A stretch of DNA of 36,325 nucleotides, from contig CANROK010000009.1 of the NCBI GenBank assembly GCA_947632205.1, forward strand, positions 1 through 36,325, read 5' to 3'. A program made the translations under genes and the position numbers. Below the pieces are notes generated by a model. It searched no databases. It was given only the letters and a program-made list of their open reading frames with translations, and had not been told where the DNA came from. Origin of the DNA: an uncultured Bacilli bacterium (GTDB lineage Bacteria; Bacillota_I; Bacilli_A; RF39; UBA660). How positions within the stretch are numbered: position 1 is the stretch's first letter; every line of letters starts with the position of its first letter. Shown here piece by piece: positions 20,688 to 27,113 of the stretch.

Positions 20688-21221
20688 ATGAAAATATTTT
20701 TAATAGCAGGTAAGGCCGGCAGTGGCAAAAGTGAAATTGCTAAAATGATTAAAGAATATTATATTTATAAATTACAAAAATGTGCTATTACACAATATAG
20801 TAAATTTATTAAGTATTTTGCTTTAGAATTAACAGATTGGGATGGCAATCCTAATACAAAACCAAGAGCTTATTTACAACAAATAGGGGATAAGATAAGA
20901 AATTATGATGATAAATATTTTACTAATCGAATGATTGAAGATATAAATATATATGCAACTTTATGTGATGTTTTAGTTGTAAGTGATGTAAGATTTCCTA
21001 ATGAAATTGAAGAAATTAAATTGAATTATGACAATGTTTATTCAATTTATATTGAAAATCAATTTGCAAATAGTCCATTAACTATTGATGAACAAATGCA
21101 TATATCAGAAACTGCCTTAGAAAATTACAATGATTTTGATTATATAATTGTTAATGATAAAGATATAAATGTCTTAAAAGAAAAAGTATTTAAAATTTTA
21201 GAAGGATTAGAGAAAAAATGA
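20688..21221 (+). CDS. Deoxynucleoside monophosphate kinase-like P-loop protein
   Basis: This 177-aa P-loop kinase starts MKIFLIAGKAGSGKSEIA, with Walker A GKAGSGKS at residues 8-15. Further signs of the phage-T4-gp1-like dNMP kinase family are YLQQIGDKIR in the middle, the strand VVSDVRFPNEIEEI and the C-terminal MHISETALE. Such enzymes phosphorylate dNMPs to dNDPs in the cytoplasm. The exact substrate is not shown by sequence, so a dephospho-CoA-kinase-like or other nucleotide role remains open. GGAGGA at 20679-20684 fixes ATG 20688 over an upstream in-frame ATG at 20646. Its stop TGA overlaps the ATG of alaS by four bases, so the two are translated together. A -10-like TATTAT lies at 20652. 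Confidence 0.75.
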   Translation: MKIFLIAGKAGSGKSEIAKMIKEYYIYKLQKCAITQYSKFIKYFALELTDWDGNPNTKPRAYLQQIGDKIRNYDDKYFTNRMIEDINIYATLCDVLVVSDVRFPNEIEEIKLNYDNVYSIYIENQFANSPLTIDEQMHISETALENYNDFDYIIVNDKDINVLKEKVFKILEGLEKK

Positions 21222-22966
21222 ATAATTTAAAAGATTTATACATTAATTTTTTTATAAGTAAGGGACATAAACAAATTCCTAGTGCTCCAGTTGTACCCGA
21301 AAATGATCCATCAGTATTATTTAATACGGCCGGAATGCAGCCATTAATTCCTTATTTAATGGGTGAAAAACATCCATATGGAACGAGGATTTGTGATTAT
21401 CAAAAATGTATTAGAACAAATGATTTGGATGCTGTAGGAGACACTACTCATCATACATTTTTTGAAATGTTGGGTAATTGGTCACTTGGGGATTATTTTA
21501 AAGCTGAATCAATTACATGGAGTATGGAATTTTTAACACAAGTTTTAAATATTCCCAAAGAAAAACTAGCAGTAACAGTTTTTGCTGGAAATGATACTAT
21601 TCCATTTGATGCTGAAAGTTATAATAAATGGTTAAGTTTAGGAATTCCTGAAAGTAAAATAGCTAAAACAGTAGATGATAATTTTTGGATAGCGGGTGAA
21701 ACGGGACCTTGTGGTTCTGATACGGAAATTTTTTACTTTCGAAGTGATGAACCAATCCCAGAAAAATTTGATCCAGAAGATGAGCGTTATGTAGAAATAT
21801 GGAATAATGTTTTTATGCAATATTATAAAGATGCTAAAGGCAATGTTACAGAATTACCTAAAAAGAATGTTGATACTGGAATGGGAGTAGAAAGAACAAC
21901 AGCAATAATTGAAGGAGTAAATGATAATTATCAATCAAGTATTTGGATAAATGTTATTAAAAAGATTGAAGAAATTACTCATCTATCTTATGAAGGCAAT
22001 GAAAATTCGATGCGCATTATTGCTGATCATTTAAGAACGGCGGTATTTATCAGTGCTGATCCGGCTTCAATTAAACCAAGTAATACTGATCAAGGTTATA
22101 TTTTAAGAAGATTAATAAGAAGAGCCATTAGACATGCTAAGAAGTTAAATATCGATATTAATAGTAATTGGGAAGAAGAAATTGCAAGAATAATTATTAA
22201 TCAATATAAAAATTATTATCAAGAATTAATTGATAATGAAAATGTTGTTTATGAAGTATTAAAAAATGAAAAAATAAAATTTAATCGAACACTTGAAAAA
22301 GGATTAAAAGAATTTGAAAAAGCCACTAAGGATAATCAAGATATTGATGATTTAACGGCATTCCATTTATATGATACTTTTGGTTTTCCAATTGAACTTA
22401 CAATAGAGCTTGCTTCTGAGAAAAATTTAAAAGTTGATATTGAAGGATTCAAAAAAAGATTTAAAGAACATCAAGAATTATCTAGAAAAGAATCAGCTGG
22501 TAAGTTTAAAGGTGGACTTGCTGGTAATGGAGAGATAGAAACTAAATATCATACGGCAACACATTTACTAAACGCGGCGTTAAAAATTGTTGTCAATAAA
22601 GACGTTCATCAAAAAGGTAGTAATATTACAAGTGAGAGAATGCGTTTTGATTTTAGTTGTGATCATAAATTAAGTGAAGAAGAACTAAGAGAAACTGAAG
22701 ATTTAGTTAATAAGTGGATAAATGAGGGTTTAGATGTTACAGTTAAAGAAATGGCTAAAGAAGATGCAATTAAAAGTGGAGCCGAATGTATGTTTATTGA
22801 AAAATATCCTGATATTGTAACAGTTTACTCTATTGGTAATGTTTCTAAGGAATTATGTGGCGGACCTCACGTTAAAAATACTAAAGAATTAGGTCATTTT
22901 AAAATTCAAAAAGAAGAATCATCAAGTGCAGGTGTAAGAAGAATAAAAGCGATTTTAGAAAGTTAG
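21218..22966 (+). CDS. alaS: Alanyl-tRNA synthetase, short form
   Basis: This class II synthetase charges tRNA-Ala with alanine. Motif regions are intact: FNTAGMQPLIPYLMG, THHTFFEMLGNWSLGDYF, the GETGPCGSDTE loop and GMGVERTTAI. The editing site keeps its four metal ligands, H445 and H449 (HTATH) and C547 and H551 (CGGPH). At 582 aa it is far shorter than the usual ~870. The beta-barrel that normally precedes HTATH (with the ESGGQ motif) is missing, and the protein passes from FKGGLAG directly to KYHTATH. The C-terminal DHHA1/C-Ala part is absent too. The gene ends cleanly in a terminator, so this is a compact architecture and not a truncation by mutation. Similar short AlaRS occur in some reduced bacteria. 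It is co-translated with the upstream kinase. Confidence 0.95.
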   Translation: MNNLKDLYINFFISKGHKQIPSAPVVPENDPSVLFNTAGMQPLIPYLMGEKHPYGTRICDYQKCIRTNDLDAVGDTTHHTFFEMLGNWSLGDYFKAESITWSMEFLTQVLNIPKEKLAVTVFAGNDTIPFDAESYNKWLSLGIPESKIAKTVDDNFWIAGETGPCGSDTEIFYFRSDEPIPEKFDPEDERYVEIWNNVFMQYYKDAKGNVTELPKKNVDTGMGVERTTAIIEGVNDNYQSSIWINVIKKIEEITHLSYEGNENSMRIIADHLRTAVFISADPASIKPSNTDQGYILRRLIRRAIRHAKKLNIDINSNWEEEIARIIINQYKNYYQELIDNENVVYEVLKNEKIKFNRTLEKGLKEFEKATKDNQDIDDLTAFHLYDTFGFPIELTIELASEKNLKVDIEGFKKRFKEHQELSRKESAGKFKGGLAGNGEIETKYHTATHLLNAALKIVVNKDVHQKGSNITSERMRFDFSCDHKLSEEELRETEDLVNKWINEGLDVTVKEMAKEDAIKSGAECMFIEKYPDIVTVYSIGNVSKELCGGPHVKNTKELGHFKIQKEESSSAGVRRIKAILES

Positions 22967-22998
22967 AAACAAATTAATTATTTCTAACTTTGTTTTTT
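22959..22998 (+). terminator. Intrinsic terminator of alaS
   Basis: AAAGTTAGAAA (22959-22969) pairs perfectly with TTTCTAACTTT (22981-22991) around 11 bases, followed by a T run. The TAG stop codon lies in the left arm. Confidence 0.9.
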
Positions 22999-23018: not shown

Positions 23019-23047
23019 TTGATTAATAAGCAACTTTAAGTTATAAT
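23019..23047 (+). promoter_or_regulatory. Promoter of the pseudopilin operon
   Basis: TTGATT (23019-23024) and TATAAT (23042-23047) are 17 bp apart, with a second TATAAT at 23048-23053. AGGGTG at 23054-23059 is the ribosome site for ATG 23066. Confidence 0.65.
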
Positions 23048-23065: not shown

Positions 23066-23632
23066 ATGAATAAAAAAGGTTTTGTTTTTATTGAAACAAT
23101 AGTTGTTATAATTATATTGACTAGTTCCTTATTACTATTATATTCAACTTTTTTTAATATTCTTCAAACAGAGAAGACCTTAATATATTATGATGACATT
23201 AATTATATTTATAGGGCAATTCATGTAAGAAATGAATTAATGAATTATGATTTATATAATTCGTTGGGTAACTTTATCAATGATAGTGATACTTTAGTCA
23301 AAGTAATTGGAACGGATAATTTGGTATTTAATAATACCTATGATAAAGATTATTATCAAGGATTAATAAATGATTTGGAAGTTAATCAAATTTTAATATT
23401 AAAAAATGATGATAGGGCTTCAAAAAAAATTAAGGAATGTGTTAGAAGTAATTCATATGGTAATGATGAATGTAACGATTTATATTTAGTAGCTAGTGAT
23501 GATATGATAAGTTATATTAAATCAATGTATGTAAGTGTTCCTGCTAATTATGTTATGTTATTTGAATTTAATTCATGTGATAAAAATAATCATTGCCGTA
23601 ATTATTATACATGGATAAAGGTGGATTTATGA
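23066..23632 (+). CDS. Prepilin-like protein 1 (type IV pilin-type N-terminus)
   Basis: This 188-aa protein starts MNKKGFVFIETIVVIIILT. It is a class III-type signal with KKG before the cleavage point, Phe at +1, Glu at +5 and a hydrophobic helix of about 20 residues. A prepilin peptidase would cut after Gly5 and methylate the new end. The rest is an exported domain with two cysteine pairs near the end (KECVRSNSYGNDEC and NSCDKNNHC), possibly disulfides. It is the first gene of a three-gene operon; its TGA overlaps the next ATG by four bases. No assembly ATPase, platform protein or prepilin peptidase gene lies in the window, so these parts must be elsewhere. Candidate roles are competence-like, secretion or adhesion filaments. 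Confidence 0.8.
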   Translation: MNKKGFVFIETIVVIIILTSSLLLLYSTFFNILQTEKTLIYYDDINYIYRAIHVRNELMNYDLYNSLGNFINDSDTLVKVIGTDNLVFNNTYDKDYYQGLINDLEVNQILILKNDDRASKKIKECVRSNSYGNDECNDLYLVASDDMISYIKSMYVSVPANYVMLFEFNSCDKNNHCRNYYTWIKVDL

Positions 23633-24516
23633 AAAAGAATGGATTTATATCGACAACTTTAATTTATACATTTTTTACAACGTTTTTATTATTATTAGTA
23701 TTTTTACTAAATTCTTATGCTCGAACTGATTTTATTACCGAGCAAATTAAAGAAGAAATAAAAAACGAACCAAAAGATTTGTCTAATGATGTTAATTTAA
23801 GTGTTTGTATTCGCAATTTAAATAATGATGATTGTAAACCAGTTAGTGAAATTCCCAATGGACCTTTTAAATTAAAGACAGCATCTTGTGATAATAAAGT
23901 GGCTCAAGATTCGATTACTTATGAAAATGGTAAAATATCTTTTACTGCAAATGATAAAGTCAATTGTAGTGTTGAATTAATTCAAGAATTACTTGATATT
24001 AATATTAATATTTTTATTAATAATAAAGATAAAAATAAAGAAGCCAAAGAGGTTTCTATGGACAATTTTGAACAAGTTTATAATATGCCCAATAAAACTT
24101 ATACCTATTTAGAAGCTTTAACTAAATGTACAACTTTAGCGGGAGTAACTCTTGATTCAACAAATTATAATCTTACTTTAAATGAAAGTGCTAATCCTAG
24201 AGAATTTGAGTTACAAACTGATGAACAAATTATTTGTAATACTTATTTCGTAAGAAAAAGTGCAGATATCGAATTACATATTTTTAAAGAAGATTCAAAT
24301 GGTACAAACTTGTTAAATGATACAGGGAAAAAATATTTAAAAGTAAATAGTGTTAACGAGATACCTACTAATTTTACATTTGATAAAATTAATAATCGTG
24401 TTTGCACCCCTCCAGTAGATGAAGAAAATTTTATTTATAATAGTAGTAGTAGAACTTTTGAAATATATGCTACAGAGAAAACGGAATGTTCAGTTTATTT
24501 TAATAGTCCTAGTTAG
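23629..24516 (+). CDS. Prepilin-like protein 2 with paired-cysteine repeats
   Basis: This 295-aa protein starts MKKNGFISTTLIYTFFTTF, a basic head and Gly-Phe junction before a long hydrophobic helix, as in prepilins. Position +5 is Thr instead of Glu. The exported part carries four cysteine pairs: C60/C69, C87/C113, C167/C203 and C259/C287. The last three sit in similar beta-type units that run from a first Cys through a Tyr-Asn/Glu-x-x-x-x-x-Phe strand to a final polar-Cys-x-(V/T)-(E/Y) strand. Such units could be disulfide-locked Ig-like modules on a filament or tip. AAAGGTGG at 23615-23622 selects ATG 23629 over ATG 23611. Family not known to me by name; similar N-termini occur in uncharacterised gut Firmicutes proteins. 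Confidence 0.7.
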   Translation: MKKNGFISTTLIYTFFTTFLLLLVFLLNSYARTDFITEQIKEEIKNEPKDLSNDVNLSVCIRNLNNDDCKPVSEIPNGPFKLKTASCDNKVAQDSITYENGKISFTANDKVNCSVELIQELLDININIFINNKDKNKEAKEVSMDNFEQVYNMPNKTYTYLEALTKCTTLAGVTLDSTNYNLTLNESANPREFELQTDEQIICNTYFVRKSADIELHIFKEDSNGTNLLNDTGKKYLKVNSVNEIPTNFTFDKINNRVCTPPVDEENFIYNSSSRTFEIYATEKTECSVYFNSPS

Positions 24517-24524
24517 GAGGATTT

Positions 24525-25145
24525 ATGAAGTTAAATAAAAAAGGAATATCATTAATGGAATTATTGATTAGTATAATATTAATTAGTGTTGTTTTATTAT
24601 TTATCTTTCAATTATTAGTAGATGTTGAAAATGAAACAGATAGTAATAATTATAGTTATAATAATCAAATTAATAGAATAGAAGCTCTATATGCAATTGC
24701 GAATGATATCAATAATATCAATAATGAATTAGTAGCCATTATTAATAATAATCCAGTATCAAGTAATACTATTTTGGATTTAGACTTTAATTATAAAAAT
24801 CATGATGTAAATCCAAAATTAACTATTACTAAAGAAGAAAATGGTGATTATGATAGGTATTATTTAAATTATCTTGATTATAATGGTAACCAAAATCGTT
24901 ATGAAATGAAAGACGTTATTATTGATCCTTGTATATCTTATATATCTAAAAGACACACTAATGGTAAATATTATTTTCGTTTAAATGTTAACGTTTATAA
25001 TTATCCAGATCATGAAAGAAATAATAAAAATTATAATAATTTAGTAGATGATTTGGAAATAGAAGCACTTGGATATGTTAATGATTTAAATCCAACAAAT
25101 AATTTATTATATAAAGATAGTGGTTATATAAATTGTTCTACATAA
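24525..25145 (+). CDS. Prepilin-like protein 3 (type IV pilin-type N-terminus)
   Basis: This 206-aa protein starts MKLNKKGISLMELLISIIL, a near-perfect class III prepilin signal with cleavage after Gly7, Ile at +1 and Glu at +5. The hydrophobic helix runs to about residue 30. The exported part (about 35-206) is rich in Asn, Asp and Tyr and contains Cys residues near 145 and the end. AGGAGG at 24515-24520 gives a strong start, 8 bases after the previous gene. The coding end overlaps tail-to-tail by 8 bases with the leftward ylbJ-like gene, so no terminator separates the two convergent units. A role as a minor or major pilin cannot be decided. Confidence 0.8.
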   Translation: MKLNKKGISLMELLISIILISVVLLFIFQLLVDVENETDSNNYSYNNQINRIEALYAIANDINNINNELVAIINNNPVSSNTILDLDFNYKNHDVNPKLTITKEENGDYDRYYLNYLDYNGNQNRYEMKDVIIDPCISYISKRHTNGKYYFRLNVNVYNYPDHERNNKNYNNLVDDLEIEALGYVNDLNPTNNLLYKDSGYINCST

Positions 25146-26061
25146 TAATAAATATTATAATATAGATAATACTAGCAATTAAAAAGTGAAGAATACGTCC
25201 AACAAAAAAATAATGGTATTTAACTTTGCTATTGGAAAGCATTGTTAAAACTTGGGTATGAATGGATAATCCTCCAAAAGATATAAAAGAGATAGCTAAT
25301 ATCTCTTTTATTATGCTTATATTATTTAAATGGGGTAAATATGCCAAAAATTGCGTTATTTCTAATATGGCTTTTAATATGGCTGTAGTAAAACTATTTA
25401 ATGTTAATTCATGCAGTAATAAATTAGTTATAATCATGTAAAAAGAAATAGTCCCTAAAATAATTAGTAAAGTATTAATACTATTTTTTATTGAACTGGG
25501 TAGAACTTGAAAAAAATTAGTATTTACAATATTTTTTTCTAAATTTGAATTATATTCATTTTCTTTTTTATTTCTATATAATAATCCAATAATAATATTA
25601 GAAAAATAATGAATAATAATAATTTTAATAAAAATAAATTTATTAAATAATAAAGATAAAATATTATATAAAAATAGGGGATTAGAAAAAAATGTAAACA
25701 TCATTAATTTATTTGCATCATTTAAAGTTATTTTATTTTTTTCATACATTTTTAAGATAATATAACTACTTGTAGGGGTACCACAAATTATGGATAATAA
25801 AAATATTTCACCACTTTGTTTGGTAGTATTAAATATATAATTAAAAAAATAGTTAAAGTACTTACTGATATTCTCTAAAAGATTAAGATTTATAATAATA
25901 TCGCTTAAAACAAACATAAAAAATAATGAAGGAAATATTTTATGAAGCCATAAATCAAATGCTTCATTTATCGTATTTTCTAAAGTATAATTATATCTAA
26001 ATAATAAATAAATGAAGAAAAATAATAAAAATATTGTGAAAACTCGTTTTATTTTATTCAT
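25138..26061 (-). CDS. ylbJ: YlbJ-like integral membrane protein
   Basis: This leftward, very hydrophobic 307-aa protein has about eight membrane segments. The pattern LWLHKIFPSLFFMFVLSDI...LLSIICGTPTSSYI...LMMFTFFSNPLFLYNI matches the YlbJ family (nucleoside-recognition/Gate domain), named in Bacillus as a sporulation membrane protein. A GAGGTAA ribosome site precedes the ATG at 26059-26061. In Bacillus subtilis ylbJ is close to ylbL; here the ylbL/sepM-like gene is also adjacent but divergent, which supports the family call. Nothing in the window suggests sporulation, so the protein may have a general transport or envelope role. The family assignment is by pattern and should be treated as likely, not certain. 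Confidence 0.7.
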   Translation of the reverse strand: MNKIKRVFTIFLLFFFIYLLFRYNYTLENTINEAFDLWLHKIFPSLFFMFVLSDIIINLNLLENISKYFNYFFNYIFNTTKQSGEIFLLSIICGTPTSSYIILKMYEKNKITLNDANKLMMFTFFSNPLFLYNILSLLFNKFIFIKIIIIHYFSNIIIGLLYRNKKENEYNSNLEKNIVNTNFFQVLPSSIKNSINTLLIILGTISFYMIITNLLLHELTLNSFTTAILKAILEITQFLAYLPHLNNISIIKEILAISFISFGGLSIHTQVLTMLSNSKVKYHYFFVGRILHFLIASIIYIIIFIIM

Positions 26062-26102: not shown

Positions 26103-27113
26103 ATGTTCAATAAAATATATGAAAAAGGAAAGAAATTTTTAAAAGAAAATTATAAATTTTTAATTTCTATATTTTTAATTATTTTTATATTTAATTATGA
26201 ATTTCCTTATATAATATACCGAAGTGGTGGCGTTATTGATTTAAAAGATCGCTTAGAAATTGATAAAGATTTTGAACAAAAGGGCTCTCTTTCAATGAGT
26301 TATGTTACGGCGATGAAAGGAACATTACCATTTATTTTGCTTTCATATGTTATACCAGATTGGGATTTAATGCCTCTTGATGAGATAACTAATGAAAAGG
26401 ATTATGATAAGGTTATTGAGGCAGGTAAAGTATATTTAAATGAAGGTATTGATAACGCTAAAATGGCTGCTTTTAGTTTATCAGATTATGATGTAACAAT
26501 AACTAAAACTATTAATTCAGTGTTATTTATTAGTGATAAAGCCAAAACTGATATTTTAATTGGTGATGAAATATTAAGTGTTGATGGTAAAAGCATAGAT
26601 TCTCTAGATGATTTAAAAGAATATATTAATACTTTAAAAGAAAAAGATAAAGTAACAATAAAAGTTAAACATAATGATAAAGAATATAGTAGATATGCTT
26701 ATGTCTATTATGAAGAAGAGGATGATTCATTAAAAATAGGTATTGCCTTTAAACCATATTATGAATATGAAACTGAAATACCAGTTAATATTAAGATGAA
26801 AAATAATGAATCTGGTAGTAGTGGTGGTCTTATGATGGCGTTACAAATATATAATGCCTTAACAGAAGAAGATATTACTAAAGGATATAAGATAGCAGGA
26901 ACTGGTTCTATTAATAGTGACGGTACTGTTGAAGAAATTGGTGGCATTAAATATAAAGTTTTAGGAGCTAGTAAAAAAGGAATAGAAATATTCTTATGTC
27001 CAAAAGCAAACTATAAAGAAGCTATGGATATTAAAAAGAAAAGGGATTTAGATATTGAAATAGTTAAAGTTAATACGTTAGTAGATGCCATCAATTATTT
27101 AAATAATTTATAA
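26103..27113 (+). CDS. Membrane-anchored PDZ protease, SepM/YlbL type (S16 family)
   Basis: This 336-aa protein has an N-terminal membrane anchor (about 17-37) and an extracytoplasmic region. A PDZ domain spans about 135-205 (ILIGDEILSVDGKSIDSLDDL), followed by a Lon-like S16 protease domain. The Ser-Lys dyad is visible: S240 in SGSSGGLMMAL and K285 in GGIKYKVLGA. This is the layout of YlbL and of streptococcal SepM, which trims a signalling peptide outside the cell; the substrate here is unknown. AGGTGA at 26091 sets the start. The gene is divergent from ylbJ and ends in its own terminator before rnc. Confidence 0.9.
   Translation: MFNKIYEKGKKFLKENYKFLISIFLIIFIFNYEFPYIIYRSGGVIDLKDRLEIDKDFEQKGSLSMSYVTAMKGTLPFILLSYVIPDWDLMPLDEITNEKDYDKVIEAGKVYLNEGIDNAKMAAFSLSDYDVTITKTINSVLFISDKAKTDILIGDEILSVDGKSIDSLDDLKEYINTLKEKDKVTIKVKHNDKEYSRYAYVYYEEEDDSLKIGIAFKPYYEYETEIPVNIKMKNNESGSSGGLMMALQIYNALTEEDITKGYKIAGTGSINSDGTVEEIGGIKYKVLGASKKGIEIFLCPKANYKEAMDIKKKRDLDIEIVKVNTLVDAINYLNNL

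Follow-up and report, generated by a model that had tools for sequence, protein, structure and literature searches.

In the Com pilus and the type II secretion system (T2SS), the minor pilins stack in the order H-J-I-K, with a K-type subunit (ComGG, GspK) that has no glutamate at position 5, Glu5 (PMC10790768, PMC8727766). A K-type pilin of this kind fits the very tip of the filament because Glu5 neutralises the N-terminus of the subunit above (PMC10790768, PMC8727766). A subunit without Glu5 need not be K-like. In S. sanguinis the one that lacks it, PilA, is I-like (PMC9934059), and the tip of the type 4 pilus (T4P) of this species consists of the Glu5-less PilA together with the modular, adhesive pilins PilB and PilC (PMC9934059, PMC8179133). 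Across the type 4 filaments studied, binding at the tip is set by minor pilins, PilY1-like proteins or modular pilins. The tail of ComGG has no known role (PMC12153270). For the bacteria considered here, we found nothing specific in the literature on pili.

The DNA analysed, which we call the window, is a stretch of 36,325 nucleotides from an uncultured Bacilli bacterium. It is contig C9 of a draft genome of 1.42 Mb that comprises 115 contigs and is 89% complete.

Three adjacent prepilin genes

An earlier note, made from the letters of the window alone, had described three adjacent plus-strand genes with overlapping or nearly touching ends, each beginning with a prepilin-type segment. We find these genes, here P1, P2 and P3, at the same positions, with a corrected start for P2. 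The features of the locus and its downstream neighbours are as follows.

22959..22998, plus strand: terminator-like hairpin and T run after alaS (AAAGTTAGAAA...TTTCTAACTTT, then T-rich), read directly in the sequence
23019..23047, plus strand: possible promoter 5' of P1 (TTGATT-17-TATAAT), weak evidence
23066..23632, plus strand: P1, Glu5-bearing minor prepilin of 188 aa, I- or J-like candidate
23629..24516, plus strand: P2, modular prepilin without Glu5, candidate cap subunit, 295 aa (301 aa from 23611)
24525..25145, plus strand: P3, Glu5-bearing minor prepilin of 206 aa, with AGGAGG upstream
25138..26061, minus strand: convergent gene for a YlbJ-like membrane protein, a conserved neighbour with no known filament role
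26103..27113, plus strand: gene for a SepM-family PDZ/Lon-type serine protease, a conserved neighbour

The hairpin stands between alaS and the trio; our hairpin scan missed it because its loop is 11 nt long. Promoter-like sites are no more frequent in this AT-rich window than in shuffled versions of it. P2 most likely starts at 23629 rather than at 23611: the ATG at 23629 has AAAGGTGG upstream, a good Shine-Dalgarno sequence, it forms an ATGA overlap with the stop codon of P1, and the same start is kept in relatives.

The translated reading frames begin MNKKG-FVFIE (P1), MKKNG-FISTT (P2, if started at 23629) and MKLNKKG-ISLME (P3), the hyphen following the predicted Gly-1. All three show the features of class III signal peptides, namely a short charged leader, Gly-1 and a hydrophobic alpha1, and together they display the K-type pattern, with P1 and P3 carrying Glu5 and P2 lacking it. 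A strict prepilin pattern (a basic or polar residue and Gly, then an uncharged core of 16 residues) was passed by 3 of the 37 reading frames of at least 60 aa in the window, and these are the three adjacent genes. Pfam N_methyl matched P3 barely above its cut-off (21.5 versus 21.2 bits); Pfam gave no significant match for P1 or P2.

More specific models added little. None of the trio reached the cut-off of the ComGE, ComGF, ComGG or GspI/J/K models, whose matches cover the N-terminal helix only: P1 had weak N-terminal matches to ComGF and ComGE, the best of them, to ComGF, scoring 20.2 bits against a cut-off of 80, and the ComGG model did not match P2. In profile searches of PDB sequences, P3 matched pilins at the N-terminus only, and P1 and P2 gave no useful match. 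Foldseek and VIA gave no confident match for P1 or P2; GspI/J/K did not appear in their lists, an absence that is uninformative either way. AlphaFold predicts for P1 a long N-terminal helix (residues 3-40) and an alpha/beta head, with a mean pLDDT of 88.

The relatives available for comparison are metagenome assemblies, mostly deposited as 'uncultured Bacilli bacterium'; going by their names, many come from rabbit gut and some from other animals. A search with P3 in 60 genomes gave matches in 33 of the 36 other genomes of the same genus. The earlier note had left open whether the order of the trio is conserved, and it is: P1, P2 and P3 are contiguous and in order at 30 of the 33 same-genus loci, two of the 33 being cut by a contig end (L062, L069). 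The difference in Glu5 that the note had read from a single sequence is likewise fixed in the genus. Gly-1 and Glu5 are present in every same-genus sequence examined of P1 (31/31) and P3 (34/34), while P2 has Gly-1 in 33/33 and Glu5 in none.

In the genus, the trio is usually preceded by a kinase gene and alaS and followed by ylbJ (minus strand) and sepM. The short alaS (582-593 aa; window positions 21218-22966) splits into sequence classes within this one genus, with identities to the window copy of 90% and 69-70% in a few genomes and 53-55% in most; the other flanking genes lack this split, and alaS was possibly replaced in place. At the remaining one of the 33 loci, on contig C1 of genome G017 (L161, L165), P1-P2 is followed by about 12 kb with ftsW/rodA-like, comEA and comEC genes, and then by P3.

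Assembly and DNA-uptake genes of the genome and the family

Genes outside the window were located by profile searches and in named stretches, an approach that genes without a good profile may escape. Contig C10 carries one PilB-type ATPase (416 bits in the profile search), one PilC with two T2SSF domains and one prepilin peptidase (PilD) with both its N-terminal and its peptidase domain, close to dnaG, rpoD and trmK (the last three named from sequence). This PilB and this PilC are the only ones of their type in the genome. The earlier note had remarked that no assembly genes lie nearby, and held that the lack of any prepilin peptidase or assembly ATPase throughout the lineage would speak against a filament. 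Its remark applies to the contig of the window only: peptidase, PilB and PilC are all present in this genome on C10, which counters the proposed refutation, and in other genera PilB stands beside P1-P3.

Other prepilins of the genome are on contigs C13 and C15, so that trio and machinery, split over C9, C10, C13 and C15, do not form one operon; in other genera they are partly joined. ComEA and ComEC genes are adjacent on C76, ComEA being named from its SLBB and helix-hairpin-helix sequence. Throughout the genus, PilC is found in 36 of 38 genomes and ComEC in 35 of 38. No PilT candidate was seen in the 89% complete draft genome, and PilM_2 gave only partial, FtsA-like matches in the genus. We rejected these as evidence of PilM, as they are short, lie in frames of FtsA size and also occur in the B. 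subtilis and Lactococcus controls. Partial PilM matches and no visible PilT would fit a minimal Com-like filament.

Several further genes of this genome were noted in passing. Among the prepilin genes of C13 sit three tandem paralogous secreted proteins of 284, 252 and 245 aa (L035:5655-8270; LLVAVVGATFAYYS) that resemble TasA/camelysin-type proteins. An S41 (CtpB-like, PDZ) protease of 381 aa on C15 (L036:11820-12965) begins MQKSNG-FNLIELIIIMIITALVSIIATGVIML, a prepilin-like segment with Glu5 where an ordinary signal anchor is usual. Contig C23 holds a Tad-like locus (L037:1977-6034) with a TadA/T2SSE-family ATPase of 367 aa; its other members, without a Pfam match, are what we take to be a CpaB-like protein of 267 aa and two TadB/TadC-like membrane proteins.

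A profile of P1 matched 17 of 19 genomes of the same family; among 140 other genomes of the class it had a single match, a weak one at the N-terminus. Among 78 family genomes, each representing a different genus, 56 had a P1 match and 74 a T2SSF match. The order [PilC-PilD]-PilB(-)-P1-P3 occurs at nine loci in eight genera (L149, L152-L159), and also at L126; at most of the PilB-linked loci ylbJ(-)-sepM comes next, exactly as in the window. Since P1-P3 stands beside PilB in eight other genera, we regard these genes as minor pilins of the ordinary type 4 filament of the lineage. The same synteny indicates that the assembly genes became separated from the trio in the genus of the window, most likely by the splitting of an older cluster. 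At three other loci (L110:1013-7618, L114:1212-7612, L117:1023-8157), P1/P3 genes lie behind a ParA-TadA-TadB-TadC-like operon and not PilB-PilC-PilD.

A conserved stem and a variable array in P2

P2 has a feature that the earlier note did not report, an array of beta domains that varies among relatives. Its stem of about 50 residues, with the consensus KxGFIS..[LIV]IY[ST]FF and no Glu5, is conserved across genera. Behind it, in the genus of the window, come beta domains of about 65-80 residues, all of which contain a Cys pair and end in a CxxYF-like motif. The window copy has three, given here with residues of the 301 aa reading frame and the value from the repeat HMM.

23782..23976, plus strand: domain D1 of P2, residues 58-122, 2e-10
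23995..24180, plus strand: HMM-covered part of domain D2 of P2, residues 129-190, 1e-4
24256..24504, plus strand: domain D3 of P2, residues 216-298, 8e-9

AlphaFold predicts for P2 a helix (residues 5-46) and three beta domains at moderate confidence (mean pLDDT 82, pTM 0.56). Single domains show weak similarity, with Z of 2-3.6, to domains of surface adhesins and sortase-assembled pilins. Single copies of the Cys-pair domain are present in a few other proteins that look secreted.

Counted with one HMM, the array has no domain in 2 sequences, one in 12, two in 5, three in the window, four in 2, five in 3 and six in 8; the P2 copy of G017, outside this count, has one domain by eye. With few exceptions, the domains of short forms are nearest to the same-numbered domains of the six-domain forms, as is D3 of the window, whose nearest match is D3 of the six-domain relatives. 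Most short forms therefore look truncated on the C-terminal side, at domain borders. The exceptions are L043/L044, which lack D2, L060/L061, which consist of D2-D3, and D1 of the window, which is ambiguous. On a genus tree of YlbJ and SepM, in which several deep branches are weakly supported, at least 11 changes of domain number are needed. Across these sequences, the helix of P2 is near-invariant, and the number of domains has changed many times among relatives.

Related genera extend this range. A bare stem of 55-70 residues is found in L113, L144, L145 and L150, and within the genus of the window in L115, so that P2 lengths in this one genus range from some 60 residues, for a bare helix, up to about 490. 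Elsewhere the stem carries other modules: a DUF6273-like one matches Pfam above the cut-off in L105 and L118 and below it in L098, and Pfam gave no significant match for the modules of L100, L134 and L143. The literature on DUF6273 pilins yielded nothing specific. The homologue at L143:4107-6176 (minus strand) is 689 aa long, the part without a significant Pfam match lying behind its prepilin stem. P2 is thus a modular protein, a pilin moiety with 0-6 C-terminal modules behind a conserved stem, three of them in the window.

A candidate tip module among known type 4 filaments

We think it likely that the trio makes up the minor-pilin (tip) module of the filament built by PilB, PilC and PilD of this genome, and that this filament is most likely a Com-like DNA-uptake pilus working with ComEA and ComEC. 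The prepilin signatures, the conserved operon, the presence of the machinery and of ComEA/ComEC, the PilB-PilC-PilD linkage in other genera and the telescoping domain array are all observed; processing, complex formation, tip location, DNA uptake and adhesion we infer, mostly from known type 4 filaments. PilD would cleave the P1, P2 and P3 prepilins after Gly, the Glu5-bearing P1 and P3 (I- and J-like, in either order) would assemble with P2, and the P1-P2-P3 complex would start a filament to whose base PilB and PilC then add major pilins. Without Glu5, P2 would not be expected to carry another subunit above it. The earlier note's comparison of the middle gene with a GspK-like tip subunit agrees with the cap subunits GspK and ComGG (PMC10790768, PMC8727766), and by analogy with these P2 would cap the P1-P3 complex and display its domains outward. 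The tandem beta domains would then extend outward from the tip, forming a stalk or an adhesive fibre whose length depends on the lineage. As some species have a domain-free P2, the stem alone may suffice for the cap role, and the domains would be an optional functional layer. Against this reading, a subunit without Glu5 need not be K-like, no member of the trio reaches a ComG or Gsp model cut-off, P1 has no confident fold match, and no gene of the draft genome could be assigned as a fourth minor pilin of the H/ComGD type. ComEA and ComEC speak for the DNA-uptake potential of the genome, but do not by themselves tie it to the pilus of the trio, which may serve it.

A filament that mainly serves gut adhesion or motility, takes up DNA as a side role at most and has P2 as an adhesin like PilB and PilC of S. 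sanguinis would account for a modular ectodomain that varies by lineage and is swapped for other modules in other genera, and for the faint resemblance of single domains to those of surface adhesins and sortase pilins. These similarities are too weak for assigning adhesion, however; several species have a P2 without any domain, no PilT candidate was seen in the draft genome, and ComEA-ComEC is present there, as ComEC is in nearly all genomes of the genus. We consider this explanation unlikely. The earlier note had suggested that the genes may form a distinct small filament system of the lineage; as a rival, this would be a filament or pseudopilus independent of the PilB/PilC/PilD genes. The operon is indeed separate, unlike comG in order, and on a contig without an ATPase or platform gene. 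Synteny largely refutes this proposal, with P1-P3 directly beside PilB in eight other genera, at several loci with PilC-PilD, and again at L126; the genome has a single PilB and a single PilC of this type, and its Tad-like ATPase belongs to a locus of its own. We therefore see an independent system as very unlikely. A further possibility, that P1-P3 and P2 work for the Tad-like system found in many of these genomes, is highly improbable: the Tad-linked P1/P3 loci and the locus on C23 are in its favour, whereas the link to PilB-PilC-PilD recurs in more genera and agrees with the ylbJ-sepM neighbours of the window, and both leaders and Glu5 pattern correspond to PilD/ComC substrates.

There remain ordinary membrane-anchored proteins that look like prepilins by chance, as the missing Pfam prepilin matches of P1 and P2 might suggest. 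This we find hardly credible and reject, given a Gly-1 that is invariant in all three proteins, a Glu5 that never varies in the P1 of 31 and the P3 of 34 genomes and persists in distant genera, co-location with PilB/PilC/PilD, and a strict pattern that only the three adjacent genes pass.

If the trio is a Com-like tip module, a dispersed pilus of the competence type has been retained in a widespread family of gut Bacilli, and its minor pilins mostly escape current family models. Within one genus, the presumed cap subunit itself varies while stem and partners stay constant, and with this natural length series the requirements of a cap subunit and the function of its projecting part could be tested directly. 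More speculatively, the Glu5-less cap pilin of a competence-type filament might be an evolvable scaffold, a fixed docking helix with a free end that is lengthened, shortened, exchanged or deleted, such that a DNA-uptake pilus doubles as an adjustable gut adhesin.

Among described systems, the Com pilus (T4dP) with ComGD-ComGE-ComGF-ComGG shares with the trio a monoderm host, small prepilins encoded together of which exactly one lacks Glu5, and a genome with PilB/PilC/PilD-type genes and ComEA-ComEC and, as far as the draft genome shows, without clear PilM or PilT. It differs in having four genes instead of three; in the trio the Glu5-less gene is in the middle, in this genus the trio is encoded apart from ATPase, platform and major pilin, its sequences stay under every ComG cut-off, and P2 has a variable beta-domain array where ComGG has a short head and tail. 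GspI-GspJ-GspK of the T2SS and PilI-PilJ-PilK of T4aP are likewise adjacent minor pilins with a Glu5-less K-type subunit expected to cap the filament. Beyond alpha1, however, no sequence similarity between them and the trio was detected, nor a confident fold match for P1 or P2, and P2 shows no GspK-like head and in some species no head at all. PilB, PilC and PilA of S. sanguinis also belong to a monoderm pilus, with minor pilins in an operon, one without Glu5, and extra modules grafted C-terminally onto a short pilin moiety in PilB and PilC (PMC9934059, PMC8179133). There, the subunit without Glu5 (PilA) has no extra modules, and PilC, which does, retains Glu5; the modules of P2 are tandem, variable in number and neither vWA nor concanavalin-like lectin domains. 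Glu5-less cap subunits and modular pilins are both known; what is new in P2 is that one protein would be both.
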